DNA of 44,997 nt, from the NCBI GenBank assembly GCA_003228955.1, contig QIGN01000026.1, forward strand, positions 1 through 44,997, written 5' to 3'. Under the pieces are notes generated by a model, which worked only from the letters and a program-made list of their open reading frames with translations, had not been told where the DNA came from and made no database searches. The position numbers were made by a program, and so were the translations under genes. Source of the DNA: Hyphomicrobiales bacterium (GTDB lineage: Bacteria; Pseudomonadota; Alphaproteobacteria; Rhizobiales; Methyloligellaceae). Shown here in pieces: positions 14,888 to 35,134 of the stretch (within the stretch, counting starts at the first letter, position 1; each line of letters starts with the position of its first letter).

Positions 14888-14961
14888 GTTGCCCTCCCCT
14901 AAACCGATTATCGCTTCTGAAGCCAGATATTGGCTGCATGTTCCCCGGAAGCCAATTGAAA

Positions 14962-14985
14962 ATGGAGGGGCAGAAGCCCCTCCAT
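14962..14985 (-). terminator. Stem-loop between TAXI binding protein and permease
   Basis: A perfect 10-bp stem (14962-14971 with 14976-14985) and a 4-nt loop. Read on the minus strand it follows the binding-protein gene and ends in TTTTC, so it resembles a leaky intrinsic terminator. This would favour more binding protein than permease. Confidence 0.65.
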
Positions 14986-15003
14986 CTCAAACATTCAAGT
15001 CGA

Positions 15004-15993
15004 CTACATCAGGCCGAGTTCCTTATAGGCCCGGATGGCGCCCTTATGCAGGGGCGCCGACAGGCTGTCCGTGATCATTTTCTTGGGATCAAGTTTGCGG
15101 AACGCAGGATGCAGTTTACGGAAGGCATCCATGTTACCCAGGACGGCCTTGGCAAGCTCGTAGACAACGTCTTCGGGAACATCAGCCGATGTCACGAAAG
15201 TCGCGCCCACGCCATAGGTCTTGATGTCGTTGGGATTGCCGGGATACATACCGCCAGGAATGGTCGCATAGCGATAGAACGAATTTTCCTTGACGAGCTT
15301 GTCGATCTCCGGACCGGTCGCCGGCACGATCAGCGCATCGCAAGCGGCAACGGTTTCCGCCGTTGAGCCGGAGGGATGACCAACCAGCCAGAAGTAACCA
15401 TCGATCTTGTTGTCGCACAGCGCGCCGGCCATTTCGGCGGACTTCATGGAGGAAGCCAGCTTCAAATCGGACCGCTTCCAGCCCATCGCTTTTTCAAACA
15501 CTTCATAAGTGCCGCGCGTTCCCGATCCGGGATTGCCGATATTGAAGCGCTTGCCCCTGATCTCGGTGAGGTTCTTGATACCGGAATCGCGGCGCACCAG
15601 AACTGTCACCGGCTCGGGATGAACCGAGAAGACCGCGCGGAGCTTCTTGAACGGCCCTTTATCCTTGAATTTATTGGTTCCGTTATAGGCATGATACTGC
15701 CAGTCGGACTGGGCAACGCCAAACTCAAGTTCACCGGCGCGGATTGTATTGATGTTGTAGATCGAACCACCGGTTGATTCCACGGAACAGCGAATGCCGT
15801 GTTTCTTGCGGTTCTTGTTGACCAGACGGCAGATCGCGCCGCCCGTCGGATAATACACGCCAGTGACACCACCGGTGCCGATGCTGACAAATTTCGTTTT
15901 CATCTGGGCATTAACGTCTGCTGCCATGAATGTGGCGCCAATCGCCGCTACTCCGGCGAGAGCCACAATTCTACCTTTTACGGTAAATGACAT
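15004..15993 (-). CDS. TAXI-family TRAP solute-binding protein
   Basis: A 329-residue periplasmic binding protein. A cleavable signal peptide is seen at residues 1-29 (hydrophobic core then DVNAQ). The mature start KTKFVSIGTGGVTGVYYPTG is the typical TAXI opening. It is followed by VAQSDWQYHAYNGT and the RGKRFNIGNPGSGTRGTYEV segment. The protein captures the substrate and delivers it to the fused permease encoded next on the same strand. The GGGAGGA ribosome site before the ATG supports the start. The ligand cannot be told from the sequence. Confidence 0.93.
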   Translation of the reverse strand: MSFTVKGRIVALAGVAAIGATFMAADVNAQMKTKFVSIGTGGVTGVYYPTGGAICRLVNKNRKKHGIRCSVESTGGSIYNINTIRAGELEFGVAQSDWQYHAYNGTNKFKDKGPFKKLRAVFSVHPEPVTVLVRRDSGIKNLTEIRGKRFNIGNPGSGTRGTYEVFEKAMGWKRSDLKLASSMKSAEMAGALCDNKIDGYFWLVGHPSGSTAETVAACDALIVPATGPEIDKLVKENSFYRYATIPGGMYPGNPNDIKTYGVGATFVTSADVPEDVVYELAKAVLGNMDAFRKLHPAFRKLDPKKMITDSLSAPLHKGAIRAYKELGLM

Positions 15994-16163
15994 GGGTATC
16001 CTCCCTTACTTTTCTAACGCACCCGCCGTGCCATTACTGGAGCATGAGAATGAACCCGCGATCACACGGCGGTGAAGCTCATTATTAACGGAATTGCACA
16101 GGTGATGTAAACGAGAGTCTTAGGTCAGTCGATTAAAGGTAAACCCGGCCAGAAGGCAGAAAA

Positions 16164-16532
16164 TCACTTTGTCCGGCTCAAACCCTTCGATTCAAGCTCT
16201 TCAAGATATTCCCGCCAGCGTTCCGCGTGGTCTTCGCCAAGTTCATGGAGATACTCCCAGGAGTAGAGCCCGGTGTCGTGCCCATCGTCGAAGACGATCC
16301 TGACCGCATAATTTCCCACCTGCTCAACCGCCTTCACCAGGACGCCGCTCTTGCCCGGCTGGGTTACGCGCTGATCGGGGCTGTGGCCCTGAACCTCGGC
16401 GCTGGGACTCATCACCCGCAGATATTCCGCCGTGTAATCGAATCGGCCCGCGCCATCGAAGGAGACGCTCAATTTATCCTTGCCGGTATTCAGCCGGATT
16501 TCGGTAGGCCAGACTGCGTTCTTTTCCATCAT
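16164..16532 (-). CDS. DUF971 family protein
   Basis: A 122-residue protein matching DUF971, the domain also found at the N-terminus of gamma-butyrobetaine hydroxylase. The family pattern is clear: an N-terminal WPTEIRLN, then LRVMSPSAEVQGH, then VRIVFDDGHDTGLYSWEYL near residues 78-96. Stand-alone DUF971 proteins are often encoded next to mrp-type Fe-S carrier genes; here an mrp gene is in the window but 26 kb away. The biochemical role is not established. The protein may begin at the second Met, which directly follows the first. Confidence 0.85.
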   Translation of the reverse strand: MMEKNAVWPTEIRLNTGKDKLSVSFDGAGRFDYTAEYLRVMSPSAEVQGHSPDQRVTQPGKSGVLVKAVEQVGNYAVRIVFDDGHDTGLYSWEYLHELGEDHAERWREYLEELESKGLSRTK

Positions 16533-16808
16533 GTTCTTCCGCGGAGGTCCCGGGCTGTCAGGATCGCACGATCCTCCGGCGCATCCGTGCGCCGGGCGGA
16601 ACGTTAGAACCAGGCAGGACCAAATGCAATCACCCGCATCACGGGTTGGGCTCCAGTTTCACCAGTTCTACATATTTGTGTTTGGCCAGAAGGAGCGGAA
16701 TGCTGTTAAACAAAAGGTGGCATCGCACGCCCTGCCCTGTCAGGCAGGGTTTGGCCGGCACTGGCTTTCCGGTAAACTCCTTCGGGCGTTAAGGGGAAAT
16801 GACCCTGG
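16533..16808. other. Intergenic region with small hairpins
   Basis: A 276-bp gap between divergent genes. It holds a 7-bp-stem hairpin AGGATCG/CGATCCT (16559-16574), a CGGCGCA/TGCGCCG hairpin just after it, and CCCTGCC/GGCAGGG at about 16730-16749. No gene, tRNA or recognised riboswitch was found. Confidence 0.4.
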
Positions 16809-17717
16809 ATGGCAGGTATCGTGAGAAATTACTTTTTTGGTTTTATGCTGGCGTCGGCGCTTGCCTCGGCTGTCGCGTTTGCCATGCCGGGGGAACCCGA
16901 CATGCCGCCGGGCATGGATCCGGGCGGCGTCGCGGTGGCCATCATCGATTCAGGGGTCAACTACACTTTGAAGGTCGTCGCTTCGCGCCTGGCGCGCGAT
17001 GGCAAAGGAGAAATCCTCGGATACGATTTCCAGGATAACGACCGGCTCCCGTTCGATCTGGTGCCGGGTCAAAAACCGGAAAACGGACGCCGCCATGGCA
17101 CCAAGGTTGCCTGCATCTTCCTGCGCGAAGCCCCGGAAGCCCGACTGGTCCCCTATCGCTATCGCGCGCGTTCATTCGGCACCTTCGCACGTATTGTCGA
17201 AACCATCGCGGAAGGTCCCGCGCGCATTGTGATTATGGCGCTCGGCGGATACCGGAGGGAAGACTGGATCCAATTTGGTATGGCCGCGAAAGCCAACCCA
17301 AACCTTCTGTTCATAATTTCCGCTGGCAATGACGGCCGCAATATCGATCAGAACCCGGTTTATCCATCGAGCTACAGGCTGGAGAATGCGCTGGTCGTTA
17401 CCTCCACCGATGATTTCGGCCGCCTGCCCGCCGCCTCCAACTGGGGCACGAAAACAGTCGATATTTCAACGCCCGGCGAAGACATTGAGACTGTCGATCA
17501 CACGGGATCGAAGATATTCGTTTCGGGGTCGAGTTTCGCGGTGCCGCGTATCGCGGCGCTCGCGGCGCGTTTTCAGGCGGCCAATCCTGACTGGAAGACT
17601 CAGGACATCAAGAAGGCGATCCTCGCCCTCGCCGCCCCCTCGCCCGGCGATCGCACGCCGCGCACGGCATATGGCTGGATTGCCAACCCGGCCATTTCCG
17701 GCCCTCGGGGGGAATGA
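16809..17717 (+). CDS. Small S8 (subtilisin-like) serine protease, exported
   Basis: A 302-residue protein with an N-terminal signal peptide (residues 6-25) and a compact subtilisin catalytic domain. The triad is complete: Asp47 in AIIDSGVN, His96 in RRHGTKVA and Ser242 in VSGSSFAVP. The oxyanion Asn174 is in ISAGNDGRN. The domain is about 260 residues, shorter than many secreted subtilases, and no pro-domain is seen. The start is uncertain: the ATG at 16809 has a distant GGGGAAA, and a GTG five codons later would begin directly at the signal peptide. It converges with a trypsin-like protease gene 9 bp away. Confidence 0.86.
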   Translation: MAGIVRNYFFGFMLASALASAVAFAMPGEPDMPPGMDPGGVAVAIIDSGVNYTLKVVASRLARDGKGEILGYDFQDNDRLPFDLVPGQKPENGRRHGTKVACIFLREAPEARLVPYRYRARSFGTFARIVETIAEGPARIVIMALGGYRREDWIQFGMAAKANPNLLFIISAGNDGRNIDQNPVYPSSYRLENALVVTSTDDFGRLPAASNWGTKTVDISTPGEDIETVDHTGSKIFVSGSSFAVPRIAALAARFQAANPDWKTQDIKKAILALAAPSPGDRTPRTAYGWIANPAISGPRGE

Positions 17718-17726
17718 GTTCATGAC

Positions 17727-18878
17727 CTAGTGAGGCGGAGATTTCAGAAAACTCTTCGCCGCCTCGAGTTGGTCAGGCGTATGTTTTTCGATGAGCGCCA
17801 GCACCTCCCCGATCAACGCCTGATCGTTCGACATTTTGCCGATCTGAAGCGCGATCGGATGAATGGTGCGCTCCTCGGGAATAACATCCAACAGCCAGCG
17901 CACATGTTCCTTTGCTTCCTCCAGCCGTCTTGAAAAGCGCAGCGCGATCACCAGTCCGAGTCGCGAATTGATGGCGTTGGGATCCTTTTCGAGCGAGCGC
18001 TCGAAAAACTTTACGGACATCCCGAGGCGCCGCTGCCGGCCCATCAGCTGCGCCGCAAGATCGAACAGCTGGCGGTTTTCGCTTGCGGTGCATGAGGTCT
18101 CCATATTGGCGGCGATTTTCTCCGGCAATTTGTCGCCGAGCCGTTGCGCCTTTTCCAGCATCAGCGTGCATTCGCGCACATTCTTACCCAGGACCGCGCT
18201 CCTTGCCGCATGACCGGGCCCGCTTTGCGCCTGCAAATCGGCGATCTGGCTTGCCGGCACCGCCTCGAAACGGCCCGCCCCGCCCGAGGCGGAAACGCCA
18301 ATGAGTTCACCGGCCGCGTTCACCAGTGCACCGCCGGAGTTGCCCGGCTGGTTGTAGGCGGTGTGATGCAGCCGGGCATAGGGTTTTCCGGGCGCGGGCA
18401 ACAGCAGCACCTTACCCTTGGGATAGACCTTGATGGCCCGCGCAGAGATATCCTGGCCAATCGACCACAAATCGCCCTTCTTCGCGGCGGCGGCTTTCAG
18501 GACAGGGCCATCGGGCAGCTTTGCGCGCAGCAGAATGAGATCGCCGGGGAATGACGACGCGATGACCGCGCCCTCGAGTTTGCCGCCACCGGGAAGGGAA
18601 ATCCGGACCGTGGTCCGGTCCGCCACGATGTGCCGGCTGGTCACCAGCAGGTCCGGGCCAATCCGCACCGCGCTGCCAACCGGATCGAACGCGGAAATGG
18701 CGAACACGGCGTCGCGCGCGGAACAGACCGGCGCGGGCGCCTTGCAGGACTCCTGCGCGGCAAGGGAAGGCGCGAAAATAAGCAACGCCCACAGAGCACC
18801 CGGACCCGACGCCGCGGTCAGCGTTCTGCGCGGTGGCACATCCGTGCGGGGCGCGCTAAACTCACCGCACCGCGCCAT
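17727..18878 (-). CDS. Trypsin-like (S1C) protease with TPR-like C-terminal part
   Basis: A protein of about 383 residues. A hydrophobic segment ending in SLAAQ (residues about 25-42) looks like a signal peptide. The trypsin-fold domain follows with His83 in TSRHIV, Asp113 in PGDLILLR and Ser181 in QPGNSGGALV. No PDZ domain is visible; the C-terminal 130 residues are helical and TPR-like (FFERSLEKDPNAINSRLGL). The ATG at 18878 was chosen, but a GTG at 18839 would give a shorter, cleaner signal peptide. Its start is 19 bp from the divergent DUF3144 gene. Targets are unknown. Confidence 0.8.
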   Translation of the reverse strand: MARCGEFSAPRTDVPPRRTLTAASGPGALWALLIFAPSLAAQESCKAPAPVCSARDAVFAISAFDPVGSAVRIGPDLLVTSRHIVADRTTVRISLPGGGKLEGAVIASSFPGDLILLRAKLPDGPVLKAAAAKKGDLWSIGQDISARAIKVYPKGKVLLLPAPGKPYARLHHTAYNQPGNSGGALVNAAGELIGVSASGGAGRFEAVPASQIADLQAQSGPGHAARSAVLGKNVRECTLMLEKAQRLGDKLPEKIAANMETSCTASENRQLFDLAAQLMGRQRRLGMSVKFFERSLEKDPNAINSRLGLVIALRFSRRLEEAKEHVRWLLDVIPEERTIHPIALQIGKMSNDQALIGEVLALIEKHTPDQLEAAKSFLKSPPH

Positions 18879-18897
18879 TGTCCTGGGAGAGCCCGTC

Positions 18898-19218
18898 TTG
18901 GAAGAACCAAAAGCAGATACAAGAAGCCGCAACGAACGCCGCGCCGCGCGCAAGGAGGGAGAGCTTGATTCAACAGCTTTTTTGAAACTCGCGGATAAAT
19001 TCATCGATCTCGCCAATCGGGAAAACGCCCAGGTCAAGGCAACACAGCTGCATATGGCATTCCTGTATGCCGCCGCACGATACAGCGCCTATGTGGCCAA
19101 GTCAGTCAGCAATGTCGGGGAACATGAAAAATTCGTGCAGCATATGGTCGGGCAGTATCAGGAGATGCTGCGCCAGCATCTGGCCGACGAAAGTCTGGAG
19201 ACGCCAAAGAAATCCTAA
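18898..19218 (+). CDS. DUF3144 family protein (TTG start)
   Basis: A 106-residue protein whose core (ADKFIDLANRENAQV, then LHMAFLYAAARYSAYVAKS, then FVQHMVGQYQEMLRQHLADES) fits DUF3144, a small uncharacterised proteobacterial family. The best start is a TTG at 18898 with GGAGAG seven bases upstream; longer versions would run into the divergent protease coding region. The basic N-terminal 20 residues are not typical of the family. It faces the EptA-like gene in convergent orientation. No function can be assigned. Confidence 0.72.
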   Translation: MEEPKADTRSRNERRAARKEGELDSTAFLKLADKFIDLANRENAQVKATQLHMAFLYAAARYSAYVAKSVSNVGEHEKFVQHMVGQYQEMLRQHLADESLETPKKS

Positions 19219-19267
19219 AAGCGCAAGTCATCGGTTGATCCCGGCAAAAGCTGACGGCGAATAGGCC

Positions 19268-20902
19268 CTACCAGGTCTCCGTAGCCGAGTCGCCGAGAAT
19301 ATCCATTTTCGGATCGTAGGCCGCCGAGCGTATTTCGAACAATCCCAGAAGGGTTGAAAATACATTGTCCTGGGACAGGCGTTTTTTGCGCGTCTCGTCG
19401 ATCTTGGCCAGATTCTCCTTATCGAAGTTCTTCCCGAACCACATGACGGCGGGCACGTGTTTTTGGGCATCGGGCGCCAGGAAATACGGCAGGGCGTGGA
19501 GATACAACCCGTTTTCACCCAGAGATTCGCCATGGTCGCCGACATAGAGCATCGCGGTCTCGAATGCATTGTCGTTCTGCTTCAGGAGTTTGATGATTTT
19601 TGACAGAAAATAGTCCGTGTAGAGGACAGTGTTATCGTAAGCGTTCACGATCTCCTGTTTGCTGCATGCCCCCATGTCACTGGTCTTGCAGACGGGCTTG
19701 AATTTTTCGAACGCCGCCGGGTAGCGTTTGTAATAAGCGGGCCCGTGATTTCCCATCTGATGGAGAACGACCAGGATATCCCCGGCCGGGCGCTCATCGA
19801 TGTATTTCTGCAAACCAACCAGCATGCCCTCGTCCCGGCACTCGGGATTGCAGACCGTATTTGTCTCCGGCGACTGAAAGCTTTCATAGGTGACCCGATC
19901 GGCAACGCCTTTCGAACTCGAATTATTGTCCCGCCACAGGACACTGACGCCGGCGCGACTCAGAATATCGAGCGCATTGTCGGCAGCTTTCGCCTTGCGC
20001 CGGTCAAATTCCTTGCGGGTATAATGCGAGAAAATACATGGTACGGACTGCGCGGTGGTGGTTGCGCAGGACCAGAAATCGGGGAAGTTGACGACTTTCT
20101 CCCGGCTCAGCAGGGGATTGGTTTCGCGCTCATATCCGTTGAGCGAAAAATGATCCGCGCGGACACTTTCGCCAACGATCATGATGACGAGCTCCCTGTC
20201 AGTGTCGCGTTCCGGAATCTTGGCGTCCGCGCCCACGATCAAGGCCGGGTAGGAGGTGGATTTGATCGCGATCCGGGCGAGTTTGCCGACGGAATAAATC
20301 GCGTGCGTGGGATTAACCTGAGCCCAAAGCCCCCTCTGCATCCGGAACGAAGACGCGTATTGGGCGCTGAAAGCGAGGGAGACCGTGACCATCACGAATA
20401 TCGATGCGCCCGCCAGCTTCAGCCGTGAAATCCCCTCGGCCCGGCGCGCCGGACGGCGCAGTTCCACGTGATAAATGAACAGGGACGGCAGGACCCCGAG
20501 AATGGCCACATATCTGACCAGCGGAAAACTGATGAGATCGCGCACTTCGGCGGCGTTGGTCTCAAGGACATTCTCAATCATCCTGAAATCTATAATCGCG
20601 CCATACTGATTCATGAAATAGGCGATCAGTGAACTCAGGAGAAGGAAGGCAATGAGGAAGGGTTTTACGAAAACACCATGGCAGACAACCGAGAGCATGA
20701 TGATGAATACGGCCGTTATGCGCGCGAACGCGGAGAGAAGGAACAGGATATTCTGCGCGTCGAGATCGTAGATTTTTGCGGCGCTGGTGAAGAAAGCCGA
20801 GTTGGAAAACAACGCGACGAAGAGGGACACGATGACAATCAGCTCGGTGCTCGAGAACGCCCTGACTGCCGGAAAGCTGAATCTTTTCATGTCCTGACTC
20901 AT
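19268..20902 (-). CDS. Lipid A phosphoethanolamine transferase (EptA-like)
   Basis: A 544-residue inner-membrane enzyme with about five N-terminal membrane helices (to residue 200) and a periplasmic sulfatase-fold domain. Zinc and catalytic motifs of the EptA/MCR family are present: VGESVRADHFSLNGYERETN, the Thr nucleophile in SCATTTAQSVPC, NHGPAYYKRYP and YVGDHGESLGENGLYLHALPY. Such enzymes add phosphoethanolamine to lipid A or core sugars, which lowers surface charge and can give resistance to cationic peptides. The frame is open 18 codons upstream; the ATG at 20902 is preferred for length. The acceptor in this organism is not known. Confidence 0.92.
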   Translation of the reverse strand: MSQDMKRFSFPAVRAFSSTELIVIVSLFVALFSNSAFFTSAAKIYDLDAQNILFLLSAFARITAVFIIMLSVVCHGVFVKPFLIAFLLLSSLIAYFMNQYGAIIDFRMIENVLETNAAEVRDLISFPLVRYVAILGVLPSLFIYHVELRRPARRAEGISRLKLAGASIFVMVTVSLAFSAQYASSFRMQRGLWAQVNPTHAIYSVGKLARIAIKSTSYPALIVGADAKIPERDTDRELVIMIVGESVRADHFSLNGYERETNPLLSREKVVNFPDFWSCATTTAQSVPCIFSHYTRKEFDRRKAKAADNALDILSRAGVSVLWRDNNSSSKGVADRVTYESFQSPETNTVCNPECRDEGMLVGLQKYIDERPAGDILVVLHQMGNHGPAYYKRYPAAFEKFKPVCKTSDMGACSKQEIVNAYDNTVLYTDYFLSKIIKLLKQNDNAFETAMLYVGDHGESLGENGLYLHALPYFLAPDAQKHVPAVMWFGKNFDKENLAKIDETRKKRLSQDNVFSTLLGLFEIRSAAYDPKMDILGDSATETW

Positions 20903-21058
20903 ATGCGCAAAGCCCTGTTCAGGCCGCGTGATACCCGCTGTCCGCACCTTGAGCAATACTGCGAAGGGCGGAGCGGCAGGGCATACGCCGTTACGCCGGA
21001 ATAAAGGCCAATTGTTGGTAGCCCAGGATGTAATTTCCCCCCCGGGGGGAGGTCAAAA

Positions 21059-22729
21059 TTAAAGTTCCACCGAAAGAGCTTCCGGCGTATCGACCGCATA
21101 GACCGTGATCGCGCCATCGCGCCCCTTCACCTGAATCTTGTGTTTGGGGAATTTCGAAAAATCAATTCCGCTGTACCGCGCCGTATCGGCGGATACGACG
21201 AGTGGCACGCCAAATTCCTTGGTCTGGGATTCGAGGCGCGCCGCCACATTGGCGTTGTCGCCAAGCGCGGAAATGATGGGTGACGCGGGCGGACCCATCG
21301 AGCCGACAATGGCCTCGCCGGTATGGATGCCAATGCCTATCTTGAGCTCTTCACTCAACTCGTCCCCGAGCTTCTCGTTGAGTTGAGACAGACGCCGCAG
21401 CATGGCTTTCGCTCCGGCGATTGCCTCCGCGGCGCCCTTTTCCGCGCCCGAGTCCAGTCCATAGATGGCCATCAGGCCATCGCCGTTGAACTGGGCATAA
21501 TGGCCATCGGTTTCGGTTAGCGCCTGCGCCAGTTCGGCGAAGAACTGGTTGAGCACGAACACCACGTCGAAAGGAAGGCGGCCCTCGCACAGCTTTGTCG
21601 AGCCGCGCAAGTCAACGAAAAGTATCGCAACCACCTGTTCCTTGCCCTGCTGGTAGCCCGGTTTGGCCAGGGCCTCGCTGGGTCCGGCGTGGTCCGGAAC
21701 CAGCGCAACGACCTGGATATTGGACGTTGGCCGTATCTGGCACGCCAGACGCACGGACGGTGAATCCGACACCCGGGCAAGGACAGTCTTCTCCGCCTCG
21801 TCAGGCGGGAGGAGATTTTCAGCACCCTCTCCAATGCGCACCCGGCAGGTGGAGCAGCGCCCCCGCCCGCCGCAAATGGAGGCATGGGAAATACCCGCGG
21901 TGCGGATCGATTCAAGGAGCGTCGCACCGGGAAGCAAATCGGCCGAATGGCTGCCGGGAGAATAAATGAGGCGGGGCTTGTCGTGTCTGGCGGGATAAAA
22001 GTAAACAGCGGCGCGGGCGGCCACGAGCAGCAAAATGAAAGCGATGACATAGAATTCCGTGCCATAGACAAAATCCACCATCCACGGCTGCACACGGGAG
22101 GTGTAAACCGCCTGCAAGCCACCCGGCTCCTGCGCCAGCACCCTCACGCGCATGGCCGCCGCCAGGTAACCGGACAACGCCAGCGCCGGCAGGATCAGTG
22201 CCACTGCAAACGCCATCGGCTGAAACCGCGCATACCAGGGCTGGAGGCGAAGCCAGCTATGCAGGCCAACGCAGCCATGCGTCCAGACCACCAGTAGAGT
22301 CAGACCCATGACCACGCCCCGCACGGGCGAGTAGACGGCAAAGGCGGAGAGGGTCGCGACATATGTGCTGTTATAGTCACTGATCGCGGATAGAACGCCA
22401 TTGGCGGCGACATGCGCGGCAAGAAGGGGGGGTATGGCGAGGCCGAAACCGAGCTGTACGGCTTCCCACTTTTTCAGCTTGAAACTGCGCCGGGTCCAGA
22501 AAGCCCACAGTCCGACACCGGCATGGACGAGCAATGCACCCACGAGCAATACTATTCCGGGCCACGTTCGCCAGGGGTCGAGGAACACCGCCGTCGCCGA
22601 CTGCATCACCGGAATCGAGATGAGCCCCATTGTGTGATTGAGCAGATGACCAGTGACGTAAACGAACAGGATGACGCCACTGGTAAGCCGCAGTCTGTTT
22701 CGCATCATCTGTCCTTCGGGCGACACCAT
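21059..22729 (-). CDS. Membrane [2Fe-2S] ferredoxin-class III nucleotide cyclase fusion
   Basis: A 556-residue protein with three parts. Residues 10-245 form a multi-helix membrane domain resembling the cytochrome b anchor of succinate dehydrogenases, with histidines in helices (His28, His32, His69, His106). Residues 250-345 are a ferredoxin with Cys286, Cys292, Cys295 and Cys330, the C-x5-C-x2-C-xn-C pattern. Residues 365-545 are a class III adenylate/guanylate cyclase with metal Asp373 (FVDLRGS) and Asp417 (NGDG) and GDNANVAARLE. The usual base-recognition Lys before the second Asp is Gln413. It probably makes a cyclic nucleotide under redox control. An ATG at 22705 with AGGA upstream may be the true start. 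Confidence 0.88.
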   Translation of the reverse strand: MVSPEGQMMRNRLRLTSGVILFVYVTGHLLNHTMGLISIPVMQSATAVFLDPWRTWPGIVLLVGALLVHAGVGLWAFWTRRSFKLKKWEAVQLGFGLAIPPLLAAHVAANGVLSAISDYNSTYVATLSAFAVYSPVRGVVMGLTLLVVWTHGCVGLHSWLRLQPWYARFQPMAFAVALILPALALSGYLAAAMRVRVLAQEPGGLQAVYTSRVQPWMVDFVYGTEFYVIAFILLLVAARAAVYFYPARHDKPRLIYSPGSHSADLLPGATLLESIRTAGISHASICGGRGRCSTCRVRIGEGAENLLPPDEAEKTVLARVSDSPSVRLACQIRPTSNIQVVALVPDHAGPSEALAKPGYQQGKEQVVAILFVDLRGSTKLCEGRLPFDVVFVLNQFFAELAQALTETDGHYAQFNGDGLMAIYGLDSGAEKGAAEAIAGAKAMLRRLSQLNEKLGDELSEELKIGIGIHTGEAIVGSMGPPASPIISALGDNANVAARLESQTKEFGVPLVVSADTARYSGIDFSKFPKHKIQVKGRDGAITVYAVDTPEALSVEL

Positions 22730-22874
22730 TTCCGGCGCCGGTTTTGCCAGGCCTCCCGCTGTATTCGTTTGTCACAATGGCCGAGGATCAGGGCATCAGC
22801 AACAGCGCAGGTCAAATGGCAGAGCATTCACGAGAGATGCGTCACGGCGCAAGACTTCGCCCGGTTTCATATCT

Positions 22875-24092
22875 TCAGATTCGCCGCTCCAGCCGGTCGG
22901 CGATTTCCTCATGGCCGGCCATTCGCGCCGCGGCCCCCGCCGTCCACCCGTCATCGGCCACCAGCGCCGCGTTCGCGCCGCGTTCGATGAGCAATTCGAC
23001 GATTTTCCGGTGCCCGTTATTCGCCGCCCACATCAAGGCCGTCGACCCGTCTTTGGCGTAGCGCGCATTGACCTTTGCGCCCTTGTCCAGCAGCAGCGAG
23101 ACAATCGTCTCAAATCCGCCGCGCGCCGCCAGCATGAGCGGCGGCCTCCCGTCGGCCGCGCTCCGGTTCGGATTTGCGCGGGATGCGAGCAGAAACTCGG
23201 CCGCCTCATGCGCGCCGACGCGTATGGCCTGCGTCAGTGCGGTATATTTTCCCGAGCCGCCGTCCGCGACCGCGCCCGCTTCAAGCAGGTATTTCACCAT
23301 TGCACCATGACCGTTGCCCGCCGCGATGGTCAGCGCCCGGCGCCCGTCCGTGGTTTCGGCCTCCACTTTCACCCCCTCCGACAGGATCAGGGAGGCCTTG
23401 GCGACTTTTCCCGAGTCGACCCCCGCCATCAGCGGCGTATAACCGTCGTTTCCCCTGTGGTCCGGGTCGGCGCCGGCCACGAGAAGTTCCGCGGCAATCC
23501 CGGTCGAGGAAAATTTTCGGCTTGCCAGGGCATAATGGAGCGCGGTGCGGCCGCGTTTCTTGTCGCTCGCCCGGGGATCGGCTCCGGCGCCAAGCATGGC
23601 GGTGACGCTGAGTGTCCGGTCGCCCCTGGCCGCCACCATGAGCGGCGTCAGGCCGTTGACATTCTCCCAGACGTCGAACCGGGCGCCCGCTTTGACAAGG
23701 CGCTCCACCATCCTGTCTTCATCGCGCCGGGCCGCTTCCATGAGCGCGGTGCGCCCCGCCTCATTGGCCTTGTTGACGTCGCCGCCGCGGGTCAGCAGCA
23801 GATCGACGACGCCCGCATTGCCGCGCGCCGCCGCCACGATCAGCGCCGTGGTTCCGTCGCGTGCGGTAGCGTTGGGATCGAGACCCCTTTTGAGGAAATA
23901 GAGAACCACATCGACGCGGTTGGCCTCCGCGCCGGCCATCATCATTTCCACCTCGTTCAGGACGCGGGCCTGGGATTTCTTCTGATTGACCTGGGTGTAG
24001 GCGAGAGAACTCCAGGCCACGAAAATCAGGCCGAGCAAGATGAATAAAGCGGAGGCTCTAGGCCGTCCCATCTTTGCCGGAAGCTTTCTCAT
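22875..24092 (-). CDS. Ankyrin-repeat protein with N-terminal membrane anchor
   Basis: About 405 residues. A single hydrophobic segment near residues 13-32 (SALFILLGLIFVAWSSLAY) is a signal anchor or signal peptide. The rest is roughly ten ankyrin repeats, each with recognisable TALxxAAxxG and VDLLLxxGAxxN elements. Ankyrin arrays bind other proteins; no enzyme domain is present. The ATG at 24092 has GAGG nine bases upstream and overlaps the DUF3306 stop by 35 bp; an ATG at 24071 is the alternative. It is third in the DUF3305-DUF3306-ankyrin run, tying it by position to the FDH accessory genes. Confidence 0.85.
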   Translation of the reverse strand: MRKLPAKMGRPRASALFILLGLIFVAWSSLAYTQVNQKKSQARVLNEVEMMMAGAEANRVDVVLYFLKRGLDPNATARDGTTALIVAAARGNAGVVDLLLTRGGDVNKANEAGRTALMEAARRDEDRMVERLVKAGARFDVWENVNGLTPLMVAARGDRTLSVTAMLGAGADPRASDKKRGRTALHYALASRKFSSTGIAAELLVAGADPDHRGNDGYTPLMAGVDSGKVAKASLILSEGVKVEAETTDGRRALTIAAGNGHGAMVKYLLEAGAVADGGSGKYTALTQAIRVGAHEAAEFLLASRANPNRSAADGRPPLMLAARGGFETIVSLLLDKGAKVNARYAKDGSTALMWAANNGHRKIVELLIERGANAALVADDGWTAGAAARMAGHEEIADRLERRI

Positions 24093-24813
24093 CTCCGTCA
24101 GCCTCTTCGCCCTCGGGCGCGGCCGATGCGATTGCGTCGTCGTCGCCGGACCCCTCGTCGTCCATGTCCTCAACGCCCGAATCGTCCGGATCGTCTTCAA
24201 CCGGTTCAGGACCGGCCTTGCGCGCTTCCTCGCTGTAGCTGGCGATGCGCTCTTCCTCGGTCAGATAACCGGTGCCGGGCTTGTAGTTGGAAGAAAGTAC
24301 CTTCACCGCGAGGGCCGCGTCGGTAAAATCCTCGTCATAATCGTTGAGGCCGTCGATATTGGCGAGGATGGGATTGGACGACCACAACATTCGCAGCGCG
24401 CGACGGCGAATGGCTTCGGGAACGCCGTCCTTCATGAAACGGGAATAGTCGGAGGCGTAATTGAGCTTGTCGAAGTCGACATCGTCGAACTCGCCGGGCT
24501 GGTAGTTTTCCGGCGTGTCCTCTTCACCAGCGTCCTGCGCTGCTTCTCCGGCTCCTTCGCCATCCTGTATTTCGGCAGGGGCCTGCCCCTCGCGCAGGGA
24601 AGCCTCACGGACGAGGGGAATTTCAGCTTCGCCGCCCGCTACGGCTTCCCCAGGCTGTTCGATTTCCGCCACGACGGCCTTGGGCTCCGGCGCATCGGTG
24701 CGCATCCGCCCCGGCTTGAGCGCGGGCGCTTCCTTTTTACGCAACCCTCCATCGCGCAGTTCCGCCTTGCGGCGGGACCAGCGGGTTAGAAAATCATCGT
24801 CTTGCTCGTTCAT
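24058..24813 (-). CDS. DUF3306 family protein
   Basis: A 251-residue, very acidic protein. The N-terminus FLTRWSRRKAE and the later core RRRALRMLWSSNPILANIDG and LNDYDEDFTD are the DUF3306 signature. The middle (residues about 45-105) and the C-terminal 55 residues are low-complexity and rich in Glu, Asp, Ala and Pro, likely disordered. DUF3306 genes usually lie with DUF3305 and formate dehydrogenase genes, as here. The biochemical role is unknown. It starts 6 bp after the DUF3305 stop. Confidence 0.88.
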   Translation of the reverse strand: MNEQDDDFLTRWSRRKAELRDGGLRKKEAPALKPGRMRTDAPEPKAVVAEIEQPGEAVAGGEAEIPLVREASLREGQAPAEIQDGEGAGEAAQDAGEEDTPENYQPGEFDDVDFDKLNYASDYSRFMKDGVPEAIRRRALRMLWSSNPILANIDGLNDYDEDFTDAALAVKVLSSNYKPGTGYLTEEERIASYSEEARKAGPEPVEDDPDDSGVEDMDDEGSGDDDAIASAAPEGEEADGDEKASGKDGTA

Positions 24814-24819
24814 ATCCGC

Positions 24820-25362
24820 TCACTCATGCCCGTTCACCGGCCCCATGCGCTTGCGCATCTCGAAGATGGGTTCCTGACCGAATTTGTACTCTTCCGGCCT
24901 GACCTTTGTGTTCTTCCGCTTCTTGAATTTCTCTTCCACATGGTGCTTTTCGACAAAGTCACTCACAAAGGCTACCAGCTCGGGCGGCATTACCACCGGC
25001 TCGACGATCAATTCCCCCGAGTCCAGATAGTCGGCGGCCTCATAGGGCGACGCGGTCACCAGATGCACGCTTACCGGGTTCTCGCTCTCGTCATCATCGT
25101 CGCTCAGCACGACATAGACAACCGGTTCGCGCCCTTCCAGATTATATTTGTAACTGTGAGTTTCCTTGCCAAACAACTCCATCGGCACGGTGTCCGCGTG
25201 GTAGTGCTCCCAGCCCTCGCCGCGCCCGATCTCTATCCAGGCGTCGATTTCGCCCGCGCCGGGCAGCACGGCGATGGGGCGCCAGACATGGTCCTCCCAT
25301 TTGCTGTCGACATCCTCGCGCGCGATGACAACGCCAATCGGGACTGAAACGGTTACAGTCAT
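24820..25362 (-). CDS. DUF3305 family protein
   Basis: A 180-residue protein with the DUF3305 pattern: VPIGVVIARE, KWEDHVWRPIAVLPG, and a WEHYHADTVPMELFGKET segment, then a basic C-terminus. An upstream TTG in frame exists, but the ATG at 25362 gives the usual family start. It is the first gene of the DUF3305-DUF3306-ankyrin run and is divergent from the four-cluster ferredoxin gene, so both units may share one control region. Family members occur next to formate dehydrogenase operons, but no activity is established. Confidence 0.88.
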   Translation of the reverse strand: MTVTVSVPIGVVIAREDVDSKWEDHVWRPIAVLPGAGEIDAWIEIGRGEGWEHYHADTVPMELFGKETHSYKYNLEGREPVVYVVLSDDDDESENPVSVHLVTASPYEAADYLDSGELIVEPVVMPPELVAFVSDFVEKHHVEEKFKKRKNTKVRPEEYKFGQEPIFEMRKRMGPVNGHE

Positions 25363-25540
25363 TCGAGCATCGTTCCTGGTTAACACCGCCACCCTTGCCA
25401 AAGCAGTTAAAGCTCCCCGCCTGTAGCGGATGGATGCAAATTATAATACGCTTTGCACGTGTGCGCACCAGATTTGGAACAAACACTCCGATAATATTTT
25501 TATTGATTGTTTATCAATGGGTTAAAAGAGAAGGAACGTC
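25363..25540. promoter_or_regulatory. Divergent control region with ATTGAT-N5-ATCAAT palindrome
   Basis: This 178-bp region separates DUF3305 from the divergent ferredoxin gene and is much richer in A and T than its neighbours. A perfect 6-bp-arm palindrome with a 5-nt spacer lies at 25502-25518, 22 bp before the ferredoxin ATG. It resembles an FNR/FixK box (TTGAT-N4-ATCAA) but has one extra spacer base. A TATAAT hexamer is at 25442-25447 without an obvious matched -35. AAGGAA at 25531 is the ribosome site. Confidence 0.5.
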
Positions 25541-27598
25541 ATGTTTCTGAAGGTCAAAAACCGCCGCCTGATGGTCTGCGACTGCGAAAAAACCATGGCG
25601 CTGGATGCGGGCAGGCTCAAGGCGTGTCTGGGCGGCGAAGGTGAACTCAAAGTCTACTCCAATCTGTGCCGCACACAGGTTGAGTCCTTCGCCGGCGCGC
25701 TTGACGACGAGACGCCCCTGATGGTCGCCTGCACCCAGGAAGCGCCGCTGTTTCGCGAGATTGCCGAGGAAAAAGGCGGGCGTGATATTGCCTTCACAAA
25801 CATCCGCGAACGCGCGGGCTGGAGCAGCGCCAAAAAGAAGGCGCTGCCGAAAATCGCGGCGCTTCTGGCCGAAGCGGCCCATGACTCAAAACCCGCCGGC
25901 ACGACACCGATCGTGTCGCGGGGGGTTTGCCTGGTTTATGGCGCGGGACAGGCGGCGATGGACGTTGCCGGGCAACTGGCGGGCCGGCTGAATGTCTCGC
26001 TGATGCTGAGCGATGCGGACGGCATCCTCCCCCCCGCGATGGTCAATGTGCCGATCTACAAGGGACGCGTTACGGGCGCCCGGGGCACACTCGGCAATTT
26101 CGAGATCAGCGTCGACGGCTACGCGCCGGCCACGCCTTCCTCAAAGAAGGAACTCGGTTTCCTGATGGAGCGCGACGGGGCAAGCTCGCGCTGCGATGTC
26201 ATATTCGATATGTCGGGCGGCACTCCGCTGTTCCCTTCCGCCTCGCGCCGCGACGGATATTACCATGTGGACCCGAACCATCCGGCCGGTGTCGCCACGG
26301 CCATGTTCGAGATTTCAGACATGGTGGGCGAGTTCGAAAAGCCTCTCTATGTCACCTATAATGCGGATATCTGCGCCCATTCACGCAGCGGTCTGACAGG
26401 TTGCAGCAATTGCCTCGACAATTGCCCGATGTCGGCGATCACGCCGCAGGGCGATGGCGTGGAAATCGACACGGGCATCTGCGGCGGTTGCGGCAGTTGC
26501 AGCGCCACCTGCCCGACAGGCGCGGTCAGCTATGCGTTCCCGGAGCGGGGCGACCTCATCTCCCGCATCCAGATTCTCGCCGAGACCTATGCCAATGCGG
26601 GCGGCAAGAACCCGGTTCTGCTGATCCATGACGAAATCCACGGCGCGGGGCTGATCTCCGCGATGGCGCGCTTCGGCAAGGGGTTGCCTGCGAATGTGCT
26701 GCCGGTCTCGCTCTACGCCGTCACCCAGGCGGGTCACGATATTTTGCTCGGCGCGGCGGCGTCGGGCTTCGGCCAGATCGTGGTGCTCGGCCCTCCGGAC
26801 AGGGCCGATGAACTGCCCGCGCTGGAGGGACAGATCGCGCTGGCCAATGCGTTTCTTGAAGGCCTTGGCCATGGCGAAGAGCCGCGCATAACCCTCATCG
26901 TCGAGCAGGACCCGGACGTGGTCGAAGCGGTGCTCCATAAGTTGCCAAAGGTGAAGGCGATACGCGCCGCGGCCTTCACGCCCGCCGGGGGAAAACGCGA
27001 AATTTCCCGCACGGTCCTCGCCAATCTCAATGACGCATCGAAACAGAGCGTTGAGGTGCTGGAGCTTCCGCAGGGCGCACCCTATGGCCGGCTGAAAATC
27101 GACATCAAGGGCTGCACCTTGTGCCTGGCCTGTGTCAGCGCCTGCCCGGCGGATGCGCTGAGCGACAATCCCGAGCGTCCCGAATTGCGCTTTACCGAAA
27201 GCGCATGCGTGCAGTGCGGGCTGTGCCGGACCACCTGCCCTGAGAGCGTCATCACCCTGGAGCCACGGTACAATTTCTCGCCCGAAACCCTGTCGCCGCA
27301 AATCCTGAACCAAGCCGAACCCTTTGAATGCGTCTCCTGCGGCAAGCCCTTCGGCTCCAGGGCGGCGATCGAACGGGTCTCACGGCAGCTGGAGGGCAAG
27401 CACCGGATGTTCCAGGATTCCGAGCAGGCCAAGCTCATCAAGATGTGCGACGACTGCCGGATACAGGCCCTGTCGGAACTCGGCGACGATCCCTTCGCTT
27501 CAGGATCGCGTCCCAAGATACGCACCACGGACGATTATCTGGCCGCCGAGAAAAAAGCGCGCGAGACCGGCAAGAGCGTGGATGATTTTCTCGATTAG
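25541..27598 (+). CDS. FDH-associated 4Fe-4S ferredoxin-type protein (four clusters)
   Basis: A 685-residue cytoplasmic protein. Two adjacent ferredoxin motifs occur in the middle (CSNCLDNCPMS and CGGCGSCSATCPTGA) and two near residue 530-570 (CTLCLACVSACPADA and CVQCGLCRTTCPESV), so four [4Fe-4S] clusters are likely. The C-terminus has a further CVSC...CDDC pair, resembling a zinc or Fe-S site. The parts between clusters have no recognised enzyme motif. Homologues are found in alphaproteobacterial FDH loci; a role in electron transfer or FDH maturation is inferred. It is divergent from DUF3305 and convergent with DUF6352. Confidence 0.85.
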   Translation: MFLKVKNRRLMVCDCEKTMALDAGRLKACLGGEGELKVYSNLCRTQVESFAGALDDETPLMVACTQEAPLFREIAEEKGGRDIAFTNIRERAGWSSAKKKALPKIAALLAEAAHDSKPAGTTPIVSRGVCLVYGAGQAAMDVAGQLAGRLNVSLMLSDADGILPPAMVNVPIYKGRVTGARGTLGNFEISVDGYAPATPSSKKELGFLMERDGASSRCDVIFDMSGGTPLFPSASRRDGYYHVDPNHPAGVATAMFEISDMVGEFEKPLYVTYNADICAHSRSGLTGCSNCLDNCPMSAITPQGDGVEIDTGICGGCGSCSATCPTGAVSYAFPERGDLISRIQILAETYANAGGKNPVLLIHDEIHGAGLISAMARFGKGLPANVLPVSLYAVTQAGHDILLGAAASGFGQIVVLGPPDRADELPALEGQIALANAFLEGLGHGEEPRITLIVEQDPDVVEAVLHKLPKVKAIRAAAFTPAGGKREISRTVLANLNDASKQSVEVLELPQGAPYGRLKIDIKGCTLCLACVSACPADALSDNPERPELRFTESACVQCGLCRTTCPESVITLEPRYNFSPETLSPQILNQAEPFECVSCGKPFGSRAAIERVSRQLEGKHRMFQDSEQAKLIKMCDDCRIQALSELGDDPFASGSRPKIRTTDDYLAAEKKARETGKSVDDFLD

Positions 27599-27646
27599 GC
27601 GGAGTATCCCCGCGCCCTCACTTTTATCCACCCCTCGACCACCTGA

Positions 27647-27738
27647 CGTCACACCGGCTAAAGCGGGGGTCCGGAAAACAACCTCCGCGATATTCATTTT
27701 TGACTCCAACTGGATTCTTGGCTTTCGCCGGAATGACG
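27647..27738. repeat. Degenerate inverted repeat between convergent genes
   Basis: Left arm 27647-27672 (CGTCACACCGGCTAAAGC...TCC) is an imperfect reverse complement of right arm 27712-27738 (GGA...GCTTTCGCCGGAATGACG). The right arm has the look of the GTCATTCC-type palindromic repeats common in proteobacterial intergenic DNA. It may end transcription from both sides. Confidence 0.5.
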
Positions 27739-27748
27739 AATGCTGCTC

Positions 27749-28762
27749 TCAGGCCTCGCGCGGCAGCGGCATGTTGGTCAGCAGATTCTGCGGTTTCATC
27801 CTGATGATTTTTTTGGCCGTCATGGCCAGGCCGAGATAGATCGGCTTGCCCCGCATGGTATCAATCAGCGCGCTGTCGTCCTCGACCCGCATCCGGAACA
27901 GGCCGATCAGCTGCTCATCGTCCCCCTGTCCCAGATCCTTGCCCTCATAGAGCAAATTCAAAATCCGGTTCGATTCCACGTCCATCCCGATATGCCAGGT
28001 CCATTTTTCGTCGCTGATTGACTGGCGCGGTTCAACCCGCACCTTCAGCCGCAAAAAGTGTTCAATCCAGGCCTCCAGCACCCGGGCATAGGCGTCGAGC
28101 GCGGGCTGGGTGAAGCGGAAATCCACCACCATGTCGAACCGGTCCGAGCGCTCCCAATAGGCGTTTCTGCTGGTCTCATCGAGCACATCGAGCTCGACCT
28201 TGCGCAGGGGCGTCTCGTTTTCGACCAGCAGCTGGCCAAGCGACCCCAGCCCGCCGGTTGCCGAATGCATGGAAACGACTTCCTCATCCGCCAGCATCAC
28301 ACGCCCGTCATCGGTGCTGACGCTCTGCTCGCGGAAGAATATCTCCCCGGCGCGCAGCCGGATCGGGTCCTCGCAGTTTGTGAGGATATTGCGCATGATC
28401 AGATGCACGAGCTGGGCAACGAACACCGGGGGAAAGTCGAGTTCGCGGGCGCGCACCATTTTGAGGTACGCTCCTTCAAGGGTGCCCGCCCCGGTCAGAT
28501 GAGCGCGAAACGCGAGCACGGCGCTGTAGTTAAAGGCCGCGTCCTGATCGGCCAGCGACGCCAGCCGCTCCTTCTTCACCTCCAGGAAAGGATCGGCCAT
28601 CAGGTCCTCGAACAGAGCCTTCTCTTCGGCGCAGGAAGTGTCGATGGGATGCACTTCGGGGCGGGTATAATAGGCGCGCAGAAAATCGGGCGTGACGTCG
28701 AGCCATCCATCGTCGTTGACCTCGACGAGATGCATCCCGGCCGATTTCCAGAAATCATTCAT
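27749..28762 (-). CDS. DUF6352 family protein
   Basis: A 337-residue soluble protein starting MNDFWKSAGMHLVEVNDDG, followed by TPDFLRAYYTRPEVHPIDTS, which fits DUF6352, an uncharacterised family of FDH loci. No signal peptide, membrane helix or metal motif is seen. The frame is open for 85 codons upstream, but that stretch is Arg/Ser/Pro-rich and overlaps DUF6505, so the ATG at 28762 was chosen. It overlaps the DUF6505 stop by 8 bp, implying coupled translation. It is the last gene of the long FDH transcription direction. Confidence 0.82.
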   Translation of the reverse strand: MNDFWKSAGMHLVEVNDDGWLDVTPDFLRAYYTRPEVHPIDTSCAEEKALFEDLMADPFLEVKKERLASLADQDAAFNYSAVLAFRAHLTGAGTLEGAYLKMVRARELDFPPVFVAQLVHLIMRNILTNCEDPIRLRAGEIFFREQSVSTDDGRVMLADEEVVSMHSATGGLGSLGQLLVENETPLRKVELDVLDETSRNAYWERSDRFDMVVDFRFTQPALDAYARVLEAWIEHFLRLKVRVEPRQSISDEKWTWHIGMDVESNRILNLLYEGKDLGQGDDEQLIGLFRMRVEDDSALIDTMRGKPIYLGLAMTAKKIIRMKPQNLLTNMPLPREA

Positions 28763-29243
28763 GGTCTTCGGCAACGCTCCAGATGCGGGTGTGTTTGGGC
28801 GTAGAGTCGGGGGCCTGAATGGTGCGGAATTCCTCCCTGATCTCGCCGTCATCGTCAAAGCTCCGGCGCACGGTGAAAATCGTGTTGATGAGCGGCGTCG
28901 TGCACAGATCGAGGATGAAGCGGGTCTCCTCGCGCGCGGCGCCAAGCGCGGCGTCTTCATCGGGCGCGCCATGATGTTCGATGAAGTGCGCCGCCAGGAT
29001 GCGTTCGATTTCGGCAAGATCCTCTTCGCCGCATTCCGCCACGGAGGTAAAGGTCGACCGGCCGAAAGAGCCGAGCCCGAGAAAGCCGTTGGCGAAGGCC
29101 TGTCTGGTTTTCCCTTTCACGTCATCGGCGGTGAGACCGGAAAAAGAAAATCCGCCCGACACCGCCCATTCATCGGGCGCCGCCGCCCGCTCAAACACAT
29201 GATCGTCTGAAAGATCGAAGCGGATGGTCTTGAGGAACTTCAT
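28755..29243 (-). CDS. DUF6505 family protein
   Basis: A 162-residue protein starting MKFLKTIRFDLSDDHVFERA, then DEWAVSGGFSFSG and NGFLGLGSFGRSTF, which fits DUF6505. It is mostly acidic and soluble, with no catalytic motif recognised. A GTG three codons earlier is possible. It lies 15 bp after the ligase-like gene and overlaps DUF6352, so the three are almost certainly one operon. The function is unknown; the recurring neighbours point to formate dehydrogenase assembly or regulation. Confidence 0.8.
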   Translation of the reverse strand: MKFLKTIRFDLSDDHVFERAAAPDEWAVSGGFSFSGLTADDVKGKTRQAFANGFLGLGSFGRSTFTSVAECGEEDLAEIERILAAHFIEHHGAPDEDAALGAAREETRFILDLCTTPLINTIFTVRRSFDDDGEIREEFRTIQAPDSTPKHTRIWSVAEDHE

Positions 29244-29258
29244 GGGCGGCACCGGCGT

Positions 29259-29999
29259 TCACTCATCGGGAAACTCAAAGTAATCCATGAGAAGCGCCGC
29301 GCTGGTGTCCTCGCCGTGCTTCAGAAGCAGATTGCCATTGTCGTCGAGCCCCTGGAAAATCCCGGTGCGAGCCTTTCCGCCAAGTTCGATAACCATCTCC
29401 TTTTCCCTTTCATGGGCCCGGAACAACCAGGAGGCATGAACGGATTCAAAACCGTCCTCGTTCCACGAGTTGAGCCAGGTGAGGAAGTGGCGGGAATAGG
29501 ATTCTATGATTTCGGTGCGGCTCAGATCCGTGCAGCCTTCCTCCGACAGCCAGGTCTGGTCCGGCACATCGCCCGGTTCGGGTTCGGTGTTTTCGCGTAT
29601 ATGGCGCAGCCACAGACCCAGTACCATCCAATCGGGCACCGCGCTCGTATCGCGTGCCCCCCCCGCCGCCGCCTTCATCGCTCCGCATAACGCGCCGTTG
29701 ACGCGAATATCGCCCGGCCATGTGAAGGTCAATCCAACCTGAGGCGGCGTGAGCACGCCGAGACAGTCGCCGATCGCCACCATCGAGAGCGGCAGCATCT
29801 GCACCGCCGTTTCAAGGGGGACTTCCGGCTCAAGAATAATGGCGATGCCGATACGCGACGCGTGCCGGCTCCACACCACATCTCCCGCGCCCAGCTCCCC
29901 GGCCGACGCCCGGGTGCAAGCCACGTCAAACGCACTCCCGGCGCCCGGTATATCGTGGCCCTTGAGGAGCGGGGGAAATGTAGGGTCAGGTTGATGCAT
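29259..29999 (-). CDS. Biotin/lipoate protein ligase-like protein (probable non-catalytic)
   Basis: A 246-residue protein whose N-terminal 170 residues resemble the biotin/lipoate ligase fold (BPL_LplA_LipB-type). FTWPGDIRVNGALCG near residues 93-107 corresponds to the WPND...NGKK-AG motif of biotin ligases. The lysine expected in that motif is not there, so ligase activity is doubtful. The C-terminal part (SYSRHFLTWLNSWNEDGFE, then a small beta-rich tail with GIFQGLDDNGNLLLKHG) is like the ligases' C-terminal domain or DUF4444. It is encoded within the FDH satellite operon. A role in binding or modifying an FDH component is conjecture. Confidence 0.75.
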   Translation of the reverse strand: MHQPDPTFPPLLKGHDIPGAGSAFDVACTRASAGELGAGDVVWSRHASRIGIAIILEPEVPLETAVQMLPLSMVAIGDCLGVLTPPQVGLTFTWPGDIRVNGALCGAMKAAAGGARDTSAVPDWMVLGLWLRHIRENTEPEPGDVPDQTWLSEEGCTDLSRTEIIESYSRHFLTWLNSWNEDGFESVHASWLFRAHEREKEMVIELGGKARTGIFQGLDDNGNLLLKHGEDTSAALLMDYFEFPDE

Positions 30000-30035
30000 G
30001 AGGTGCGATCTGAAGCTGGTAAAGTGGAATTGACC

Positions 30036-30230
30036 CTAACCGGTCTCGATTTCGCCCTCGACGGTGTGATTCAAATCCGTTCCTTCCGCACTCAGCACCA
30101 TTTTCACCCTGAAGGAGGCGGCATCTCCCGCCCGCCCTTCACGCACGATCTTTTCGATCTGCTGCTGTGAGGTCACACCGACCTGTTTGAGGAATTTTCG
30201 CAGTGACATGTTGAAACGGTCTTCATCCAT
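30036..30230 (-). CDS. DUF6494 family small protein
   Basis: A 64-residue protein beginning MDEDRFNMSLRKFLKQVGVT, followed by SQQQIEKIVREG and ending with VEGEIETG. This matches DUF6494, a short soluble family seen beside formate dehydrogenase genes. The start is secured by AGGAGGT five bases upstream. It lies between the HtrA-like protease (30-bp gap) and the ligase-like gene on the same strand. No activity is known. Confidence 0.82.
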   Translation of the reverse strand: MDEDRFNMSLRKFLKQVGVTSQQQIEKIVREGRAGDAASFRVKMVLSAEGTDLNHTVEGEIETG

Positions 30231-30260
30231 CTTAACCTCCTGTTTTTTTCCCAGAGCTTG

Positions 30261-31187: not shown

Positions 31188-31287
31188 CTTCTTCGGGAGG
31201 GTCGCGCTGTGAGAGACAGGCCCTTTCCATCCTTGGCCGAAGCGCCCGCGCGAGTTGCGCGAAGACCCGGCCAATTGCGAAAGCACC

Positions 31288-31416
31288 CTACAGCCGGACG
31301 TTACCGCTCGTCGACGAATAGATGTCCGCGGCCGACATTTCGATCGCGCCAAGACCGATGGCTGCGATCACGGTGATCGCGGCCAGACCGATCATGCTTA
31401 TTACAAAGGCTTTCAT
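31288..31416 (-). CDS. 42-residue membrane or secreted peptide
   Basis: A 42-codon gene, MKAFVISMIGLAAITVIAAI and onward, ending SSTSGNVRL. It is one hydrophobic helix (residues 4-24) with a short polar tail. AAGGAG lies eight bases before the ATG, and the gene starts just 1 bp after the cytochrome c stop, so it is probably translated as part of that operon. Similar tiny proteins with a serine-rich NVRL-type end appear in other FDH loci by recollection. It could be a small subunit or anchor; no function is known. Confidence 0.75.
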   Translation of the reverse strand: MKAFVISMIGLAAITVIAAIGLGAIEMSAADIYSSTSGNVRL

Positions 31417-31417
31417 A

Positions 31418-32965: not shown

Positions 32966-33033
32966 GAGGATCGGCTGAATTTGCGCGAGGGGGGGCGGAA
33001 AACCGGTTTGGTTTCCCGCCCGCAAACTTCGCG

Positions 33034-34140: not shown

Positions 34141-34158
34141 GATAATTACCTCCCGTTA

Positions 34159-34512: not shown

Positions 34513-34528
34513 GCCCTGGTATTGCTGC

Positions 34529-35122: not shown

Positions 35123-35134
35123 CGCGTGTCCTCC

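Follow-up and report, generated by a model that had tools for sequence, protein, structure and literature searches.

Cyclases that join a redox-active membrane module to a class III catalytic domain have been described before. Cluster 1 of the six-transmembrane (6TM) cyclases, an isolated set of 30 class IIIb enzymes from alpha- and beta-proteobacteria, features a ferredoxin between the membrane and catalytic domains and succinate dehydrogenase/fumarate reductase (SDH/FRD)-like anchors with four spaced histidines, for which two hemes were predicted (PMC4821796). The 6TM domain of S. meliloti CyaC (SMc01818) is reported to bind two heme B, which are oxidised or reduced by ubiquinone with an effect on the cyclase (PMC10463352, citing Wissig 2019); the diheme statement is repeated in a second paper (PMC9552081). 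Further, oxidation by quinones can activate this cyclase, a [2Fe-2S] cluster is named in the published scheme, and replacement of K410 and T484 inactivates the enzyme (PMC10463352). The redox-coupled diheme/ferredoxin cyclase design is already published, and the mechanism that a sequence-only reading had proposed for the present locus is not new. Since such a redox-coupled cyclase is known, the headline of that reading would be no surprise to a specialist.

We analyzed a stretch of 44,997 nucleotides from a Hyphomicrobiales bacterium (the window), in which the minus-strand ORF 21059-22729 has an ATG start and codes for 556 aa followed by a stop. The ORF call, Pfam, the predicted fold and the family matches bear out the earlier proposal that a 6TM anchor, a [2Fe-2S] ferredoxin and a class III cyclase are joined here in one protein. 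Alignments of most relatives in the genome samples begin at query residue 5-13; hence, the true start could be Met1, Met8 or Met9. The full-length gene is retained across Alpha- and Gammaproteobacteria, which argues against a chance architecture, and its full-length AlphaFold2 model has a mean pLDDT of 92.3. In an alignment of 93 sequences, the residues His28, His69, His106, His151, Cys286, Cys292, Cys295, Cys330, Asp373, Asp417, Asn494 and Arg498 are invariant, with the window protein about 33-45% identical to the members of the Lys-type (Lys at residue 413). Judged by its anchor, the predicted fold of that anchor, the position of the ferredoxin and the cyclase residues, the protein is very probably a CyaC-type, or cluster 1, redox cyclase.

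The makeup predicted for the window protein matches that of S. meliloti CyaC, in which a 6TM anchor with two heme B is joined to a [2Fe-2S] cluster and a class III cyclase. Even the two substrate positions lie 74 residues apart in both, namely K410 and T484 in CyaC (compared by its published numbers) and Q413 and S487 here. However, the former displays a Lys-Thr pair and the latter a Gln-Ser pair. The settings also differ: S. meliloti cyaC sits after the TetR gene cycR, whereas the window gene adjoins ankyrin-repeat and EptA-like genes. The class IIIb enzymes of 6TM cluster 1 (e.g., R. palustris Q132R4) likewise combine a four-His SDH/FRD-like anchor and a ferredoxin with the cyclase, but the passages of PMC4821796 that describe this cluster mention no substrate-site sub-branch comparable to the Gln branch presented below.

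The predicted anchor spans residues 4-244 (22720 down to 21998, minus strand) and comprises six helices in the FrdC/SdhC-like diheme cytochrome b fold, as indicated by AlphaFold2 and fold matching. Because the best 50 fold matches of the full-length model were cyclases only, the anchor was modelled separately: residues 1-250 yielded six long helices with a mean pLDDT of 93.4. When this model was compared with 991 chains using VIA-align, the six best entries were all fumarate reductase or succinate dehydrogenase cytochrome b, with Z scores from 14.8 to 11.8 (W. succinogenes FrdC, 14.8; D. gigas, 14.4; Chloroflexus SDH, 11.8). Among the matches listed, the next were formate dehydrogenase and cytochrome b561 chains with Z ≤ 6.8. 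A plain Foldseek search with the anchor model gave a single credible match (E 0.017), which VIA-align made clear.

W. succinogenes FrdC carries two heme b, with His44, 93, 143 and 182 as the heme ligands. Residues 3-210 of our model align with residues 19-248 of the FrdC chain, a range compatible with His28, His69, His106 and His151 as ligands. These four proposed heme ligands (codons 22646..22648, 22523..22525, 22412..22414 and 22277..22279, minus strand) lie respectively in helices 1 to 4 of the model (residues 4-36, 56-79, 87-116 and 135-160), and the sequence-only reading, which had called the anchor cytochrome b-like with helix histidines, was right on this point. All four histidines were also found in 112 of the 112 places holding the anchor region in the class sample (115 places examined, window excluded). 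The likeness in fold to FrdC (1qlb, 2bs3) extends over 197-201 residues at Z 14.8 but at only 15-17% identity, and FrdC is a subunit of a respiratory enzyme, whereas the window protein is a signalling one. No Pfam family matches the anchor of the window protein at E 0.01, a Pfam scan of 41 family anchors found one that touches Sdh_cyt (E 0.055), and the anchor profile had no match to PDB sequences up to E 1. Thus, the assignment of hemes draws on the fold together with the conserved histidines. The anchor might instead be a mere membrane tether or bind a lipophilic ligand, with no heme and the ferredoxin alone sensing redox state or oxygen. The missing sequence match to solved cytochromes would fit such a role, as would the report that other 6TM cyclase anchors had no known ligand (PMC4821796); however, the invariance of the four helix histidines (n = 93), a predicted fold that singles out FrdC/SdhC and the two heme B reported for CyaC (PMC10463352) make it quite improbable.

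The predicted diheme anchor is followed by a Fer2 domain (residues 267-335, 21931 down to 21725, minus strand; Pfam PF00111, E 7e-9), placing the [2Fe-2S] ferredoxin between anchor and cyclase. Its four invariant Cys (286, 292, 295 and 330; codons within 21740-21874) recur in 113 of the 113 places of the class sample that hold the region (115 places examined, window excluded). The linker to the cyclase (residues 336-362, 21724 down to 21644) includes the lowest-confidence part of the model, with block pLDDT values of 73 for residues 341-350 and 52 for 351-360.

The class III cyclase domain, likewise recognized in the sequence-only reading, covers residues 363-544 (21643 down to 21098, minus strand; Pfam PF00211, Guanylate_cyc, E 3.4e-19). 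By class III cyclase precedent, we take the invariant Asp373 and Asp417 to be the metal ligands and Asn494 and Arg498 the transition-state residues. In the class sample, this Asp/Asp/Asn/Arg set is complete in 107 of the 115 places examined (window excluded), while five have His or Ser for the Asn and three are fragments. Three genomes of one genus each code for two copies (L208-L210 and L213-L215) with unchanged sensor His and Cys: one copy has Ala413 and Thr487 with His for the transition-state Asn, and the other has Gly413 and Gln487. The solved cyclase folds nearest to the full-length model are the ATP-analogue-bound Spirulina CyaC (1wc0/1wc1) and the guanylyl cyclase Cya2 (2w01). The latter is also the top sequence match among solved chains (phmmer, E 5.7e-21, residues 362-544), but Cya2 of Synechocystis differs in its Glu-Gly substrate pair and its CHASE2 sensor (PMC4215837, PMC5995499).

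Taken together, the sequence, the models and the analogy with CyaC indicate that the window protein is very probably a CyaC-type redox-regulated membrane class III cyclase, with a diheme anchor and [2Fe-2S] cluster under quinone control and a modified substrate site, that most likely makes cAMP. It would act as a homodimer in which every four-histidine anchor binds a pair of heme b and each protomer carries a single [2Fe-2S] cluster facing the cytosol. Electrons would pass between the hemes and quinone or quinol, and the heme redox state would be relayed to the [2Fe-2S] domain, possibly by an electron path through the cluster itself. From there, a change passed through the linker might alter the geometry of the cyclase dimer, and an oxidised quinone pool would turn the cyclase on, as in CyaC. 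We infer cofactor loading, the quinone response and the direction of that response from the S. meliloti enzyme, and homology to it (PMC10463352) lends good support to the earlier suggestion of a redox-controlled cyclic-nucleotide output.

The departure from CyaC lies in the substrate site. Gln413 (codon 21491..21493, minus strand) occupies the purine-selecting Lys/Glu position: in phmmer alignments, it stands opposite the Glu of Cya2 (2w01) and the Lys of engineered Cya2 (6fht), and the sequence-only reading had correctly seen it in the place of the adenine-selecting Lys. Ser487 (codon 21269..21271), at the second purine-selecting position, stands opposite the Gly of Cya2 and the Thr of Spirulina CyaC (1wc0); most relatives have Thr. 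Hence, the window protein features neither the canonical adenylyl cyclase pair of Lys with Thr or Asp nor the Cya2-type Glu at the first position. Residue 413 in a set of 108 rows was Lys in 78, Gln in 26, Asn in two and Glu in one, with one fragment lacking the residue; as these rows are mostly the best-scoring loci, the share of Gln is biased upward. Among the 114 places of the class sample with this residue, it was Lys in 93, Gln in 11, Ala in three, Gly in three, Ser in two, Glu in one and Asn in one. A stray or erroneous residue can be ruled out, as Gln is found in 26 of the 107 rows that hold residue 413. One locus (L014) combines Glu413, the residue typical of guanylyl cyclases, with Thr487.

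We then placed these residues on trees, all of them quick trees. The window protein sits in a 21-row branch with Gln at 413 in 19 rows and Asn in two, which received SH-aLRT values of 100 for the whole protein, 99 with the substrate loops removed and 98 for the cyclase domain only. The tree of anchor plus ferredoxin did not recover this branch, and on it Gln requires six changes, at least two of them forced by starred branches. A second Gln group of seven rows (family f3, same order) is separate from the 21-row branch in the full trees. Thus, the Gln rows do not form a single clade throughout, as both the anchor-plus-ferredoxin tree and this separate group show. In cyclase-domain trees, a single origin of both Gln groups was not rejected (p-AU 0.872); the tree held to a single origin outscored the free quick tree, showing that the quick search was not exhaustive. 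Five additional Gln rows from the class sample (L142, L147, L169, L203 and L217) lie outside all trees, and two of them (L147 and L169) keep Phe377 and Thr487, making further origins of Gln possible.

The replacement of Lys is accompanied by other changes. Defining a branch-specific position as one where at least 15 of the 19 Gln rows share a residue found in less than 15% of the 78 Lys rows, we found 19 such positions, all in the cyclase half, among which 413 and 487 are the two known substrate positions; the same comparison yielded none before residue 350. Ser377, Phe396, Ala412, Tyr423 and Ala497 are present in 19 of 19 Gln rows, against Phe (78/78), Tyr (67/78), Asp (78/78), Phe (76/78) and Ser (72/78) in the Lys rows, respectively; Asn415 (16/19) and Ser487 (17/19) stand against Ile (65/78) and Thr (76/78). 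The second Gln group has Ser377, Phe396, Gln413 and Ala497 in common with the branch and retains Phe423 and Thr487. Two readings fit this pattern: the catalytic half may have been re-tooled beneath a constant sensor, or the whole cyclase domain may have been exchanged in the distant past, a possibility raised by the absence of the branch from the anchor-plus-ferredoxin tree. In the passages on the CyaC-type family that we consulted, we found no account of a Gln-type branch.

What such a site produces has precedents on both sides. M. tuberculosis Rv0386 has a Gln-Asn pair and yet mainly makes cAMP; Gln at the selecting position, therefore, does not by itself exclude the use of ATP. The E488K change at the same place converts Cya2 from a guanylyl cyclase into an adenylate cyclase (PMC5995499). 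The Gln branch might accordingly make cGMP, or cAMP along with cGMP, and report respiration by another messenger than CyaC does. The replacement of the selecting Lys by Gln (19/21) or Asn (2/21) across a supported branch, the confinement of its 19 branch-specific positions to the cyclase half with none found in the sensor half, and the side-by-side presence of Gln-type and Lys-type copies in six genomes (G386, G389, G390, G211, G379 and G105) are all consistent with this. However, the guanylyl cyclases feature Glu-Gly (Cya2) or Glu-Cys (mammalian) rather than Gln-Ser (PMC4215837), structural placement among the branch-specific positions covers 413 and 487 only, and the restriction of the changes to the cyclase half, along with the branch unrecovered from the sensor half, could instead reflect an old exchange of the cyclase domain. 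With Rv0386 also pointing the other way, we view a cGMP or mixed product as a possible but unlikely outcome. Far less likely is a catalytically weak or inactive Gln branch acting as a redox-controlled binding protein. Replacing cyclase substrate residues has often reduced activity (PMC4215837), and in one Gln row from the class sample (L203) the transition-state Asn is replaced by His; but all 26 Gln rows of the 108-row set retain the two metal Asp residues together with the Asn and the Arg, and a consistent set of further residues accompanies the Gln. The product of the Gln-type enzyme is, thus, most likely cAMP, perhaps with a relaxed choice of purine.

The gene neighborhoods offered no guide to the target of the cyclase. 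In the window, its same-strand neighbors code for an ankyrin-repeat protein and an EptA-like protein. In a comparison of up to about 7 kb on either side of 23 Gln/Asn-type loci (window included) and three Lys-type loci, no ORF family was common to most, and a conserved partner gene was accordingly rejected. The recurrent neighbors, namely a short-chain dehydrogenase (seven loci), an AsnC/Lrp regulator (four), an ABC-transporter ATPase (four), an ABC permease (three) and a response regulator (three), belong to common families and mostly lie kilobases away from the cyclase. Within 14001-30000 of the window, the cyclase is the only ORF that falls into a group with ORFs of other loci; hence, the ankyrin and EptA neighbors are not kept even in the five loci from the same genus. 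No conserved neighbor in the branch loci examined points to a target.

Some individual contexts deserve mention. The adjoining ankyrin-repeat protein (441 aa, 22875-24200, minus strand) was not found paired with the cyclase in the relatives examined. A molybdopterin oxidoreductase cluster (24058-39035), which we infer to be formate-dehydrogenase-like, has its main subunit about 12 kb from the cyclase gene; it codes for the Mo enzyme, a cytochrome b561 type subunit, a 685-aa 4Fe-4S protein, DUF3306 and DUF6352 proteins, a WD40 protein, a trypsin-PDZ protease, a member of the biotin/lipoate ligase family and a nitrate-reductase-delta-like chaperone. In the two closest relatives, G390 and G389, the cyclase is separated from an ORF of the response-regulator group (family named from L008; L112 6232-6792 and L113 8619-9179) by 165 and 64 bases, respectively; this group has no member among the ORFs near the window gene. 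In G386, a second cyclase of 439 aa (L116 8838-10154, plus strand) is the direct neighbor of the Gln-type gene at 268 bases. The genome of the window itself (2.96 Mb, 194 contigs) has nine cNMP-binding domains and two further class III cyclase matches: one is a CHASE2 cyclase in which the 413-equivalent is Lys, and the other is a cyclase of 439 aa in which it is Gln. The latter (L002 715-2034, contig C74 of G000) is a membrane cyclase with the motif QFQGD and Guanylate_cyc as its sole Pfam domain.

The CyaC-type redox cyclase family is common in the class. Relatives were found in at least 112 of 385 genomes of the class and 18 of 61 near-relative genomes at E 1e-40, and in at least 44 of 398 genomes of the phylum and at least 81 of 297 genomes of the order at E 1e-60. 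The genome of the window is part of all four counts, the samples overlap, and the class, phylum and order figures are lower bounds because three or four candidates were scored per genome. Matches were also present in 167 plasmid records, 142 of them from Rhizobium, and named relatives include Rhodospirillales MAGs, Motiliproteus, Neptunomonas, a gammaproteobacterial MAG and a MAG labelled Asaia.

Within this widespread family, the change in the substrate site is the less ordinary part and worth following. For the Gln-type enzyme, cAMP is likelier than a different or mixed product, and it is rather doubtful that in a whole branch of diheme/ferredoxin cyclases the substrate site has been rebuilt beneath a retained quinone sensor, so that cGMP is made in place of cAMP or in addition to it. 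If true, genomes with both Lys-type and Gln-type copies would report one quinone pool through two messengers. With a differing product, the branch would be a rare case among bacteria in which the respiratory chain drives a cGMP or mixed-messenger output, through a sensor that work on CyaC has already examined. The Gln branch is a natural experiment in which a single sensor is joined to two kinds of substrate site, sometimes within one genome.
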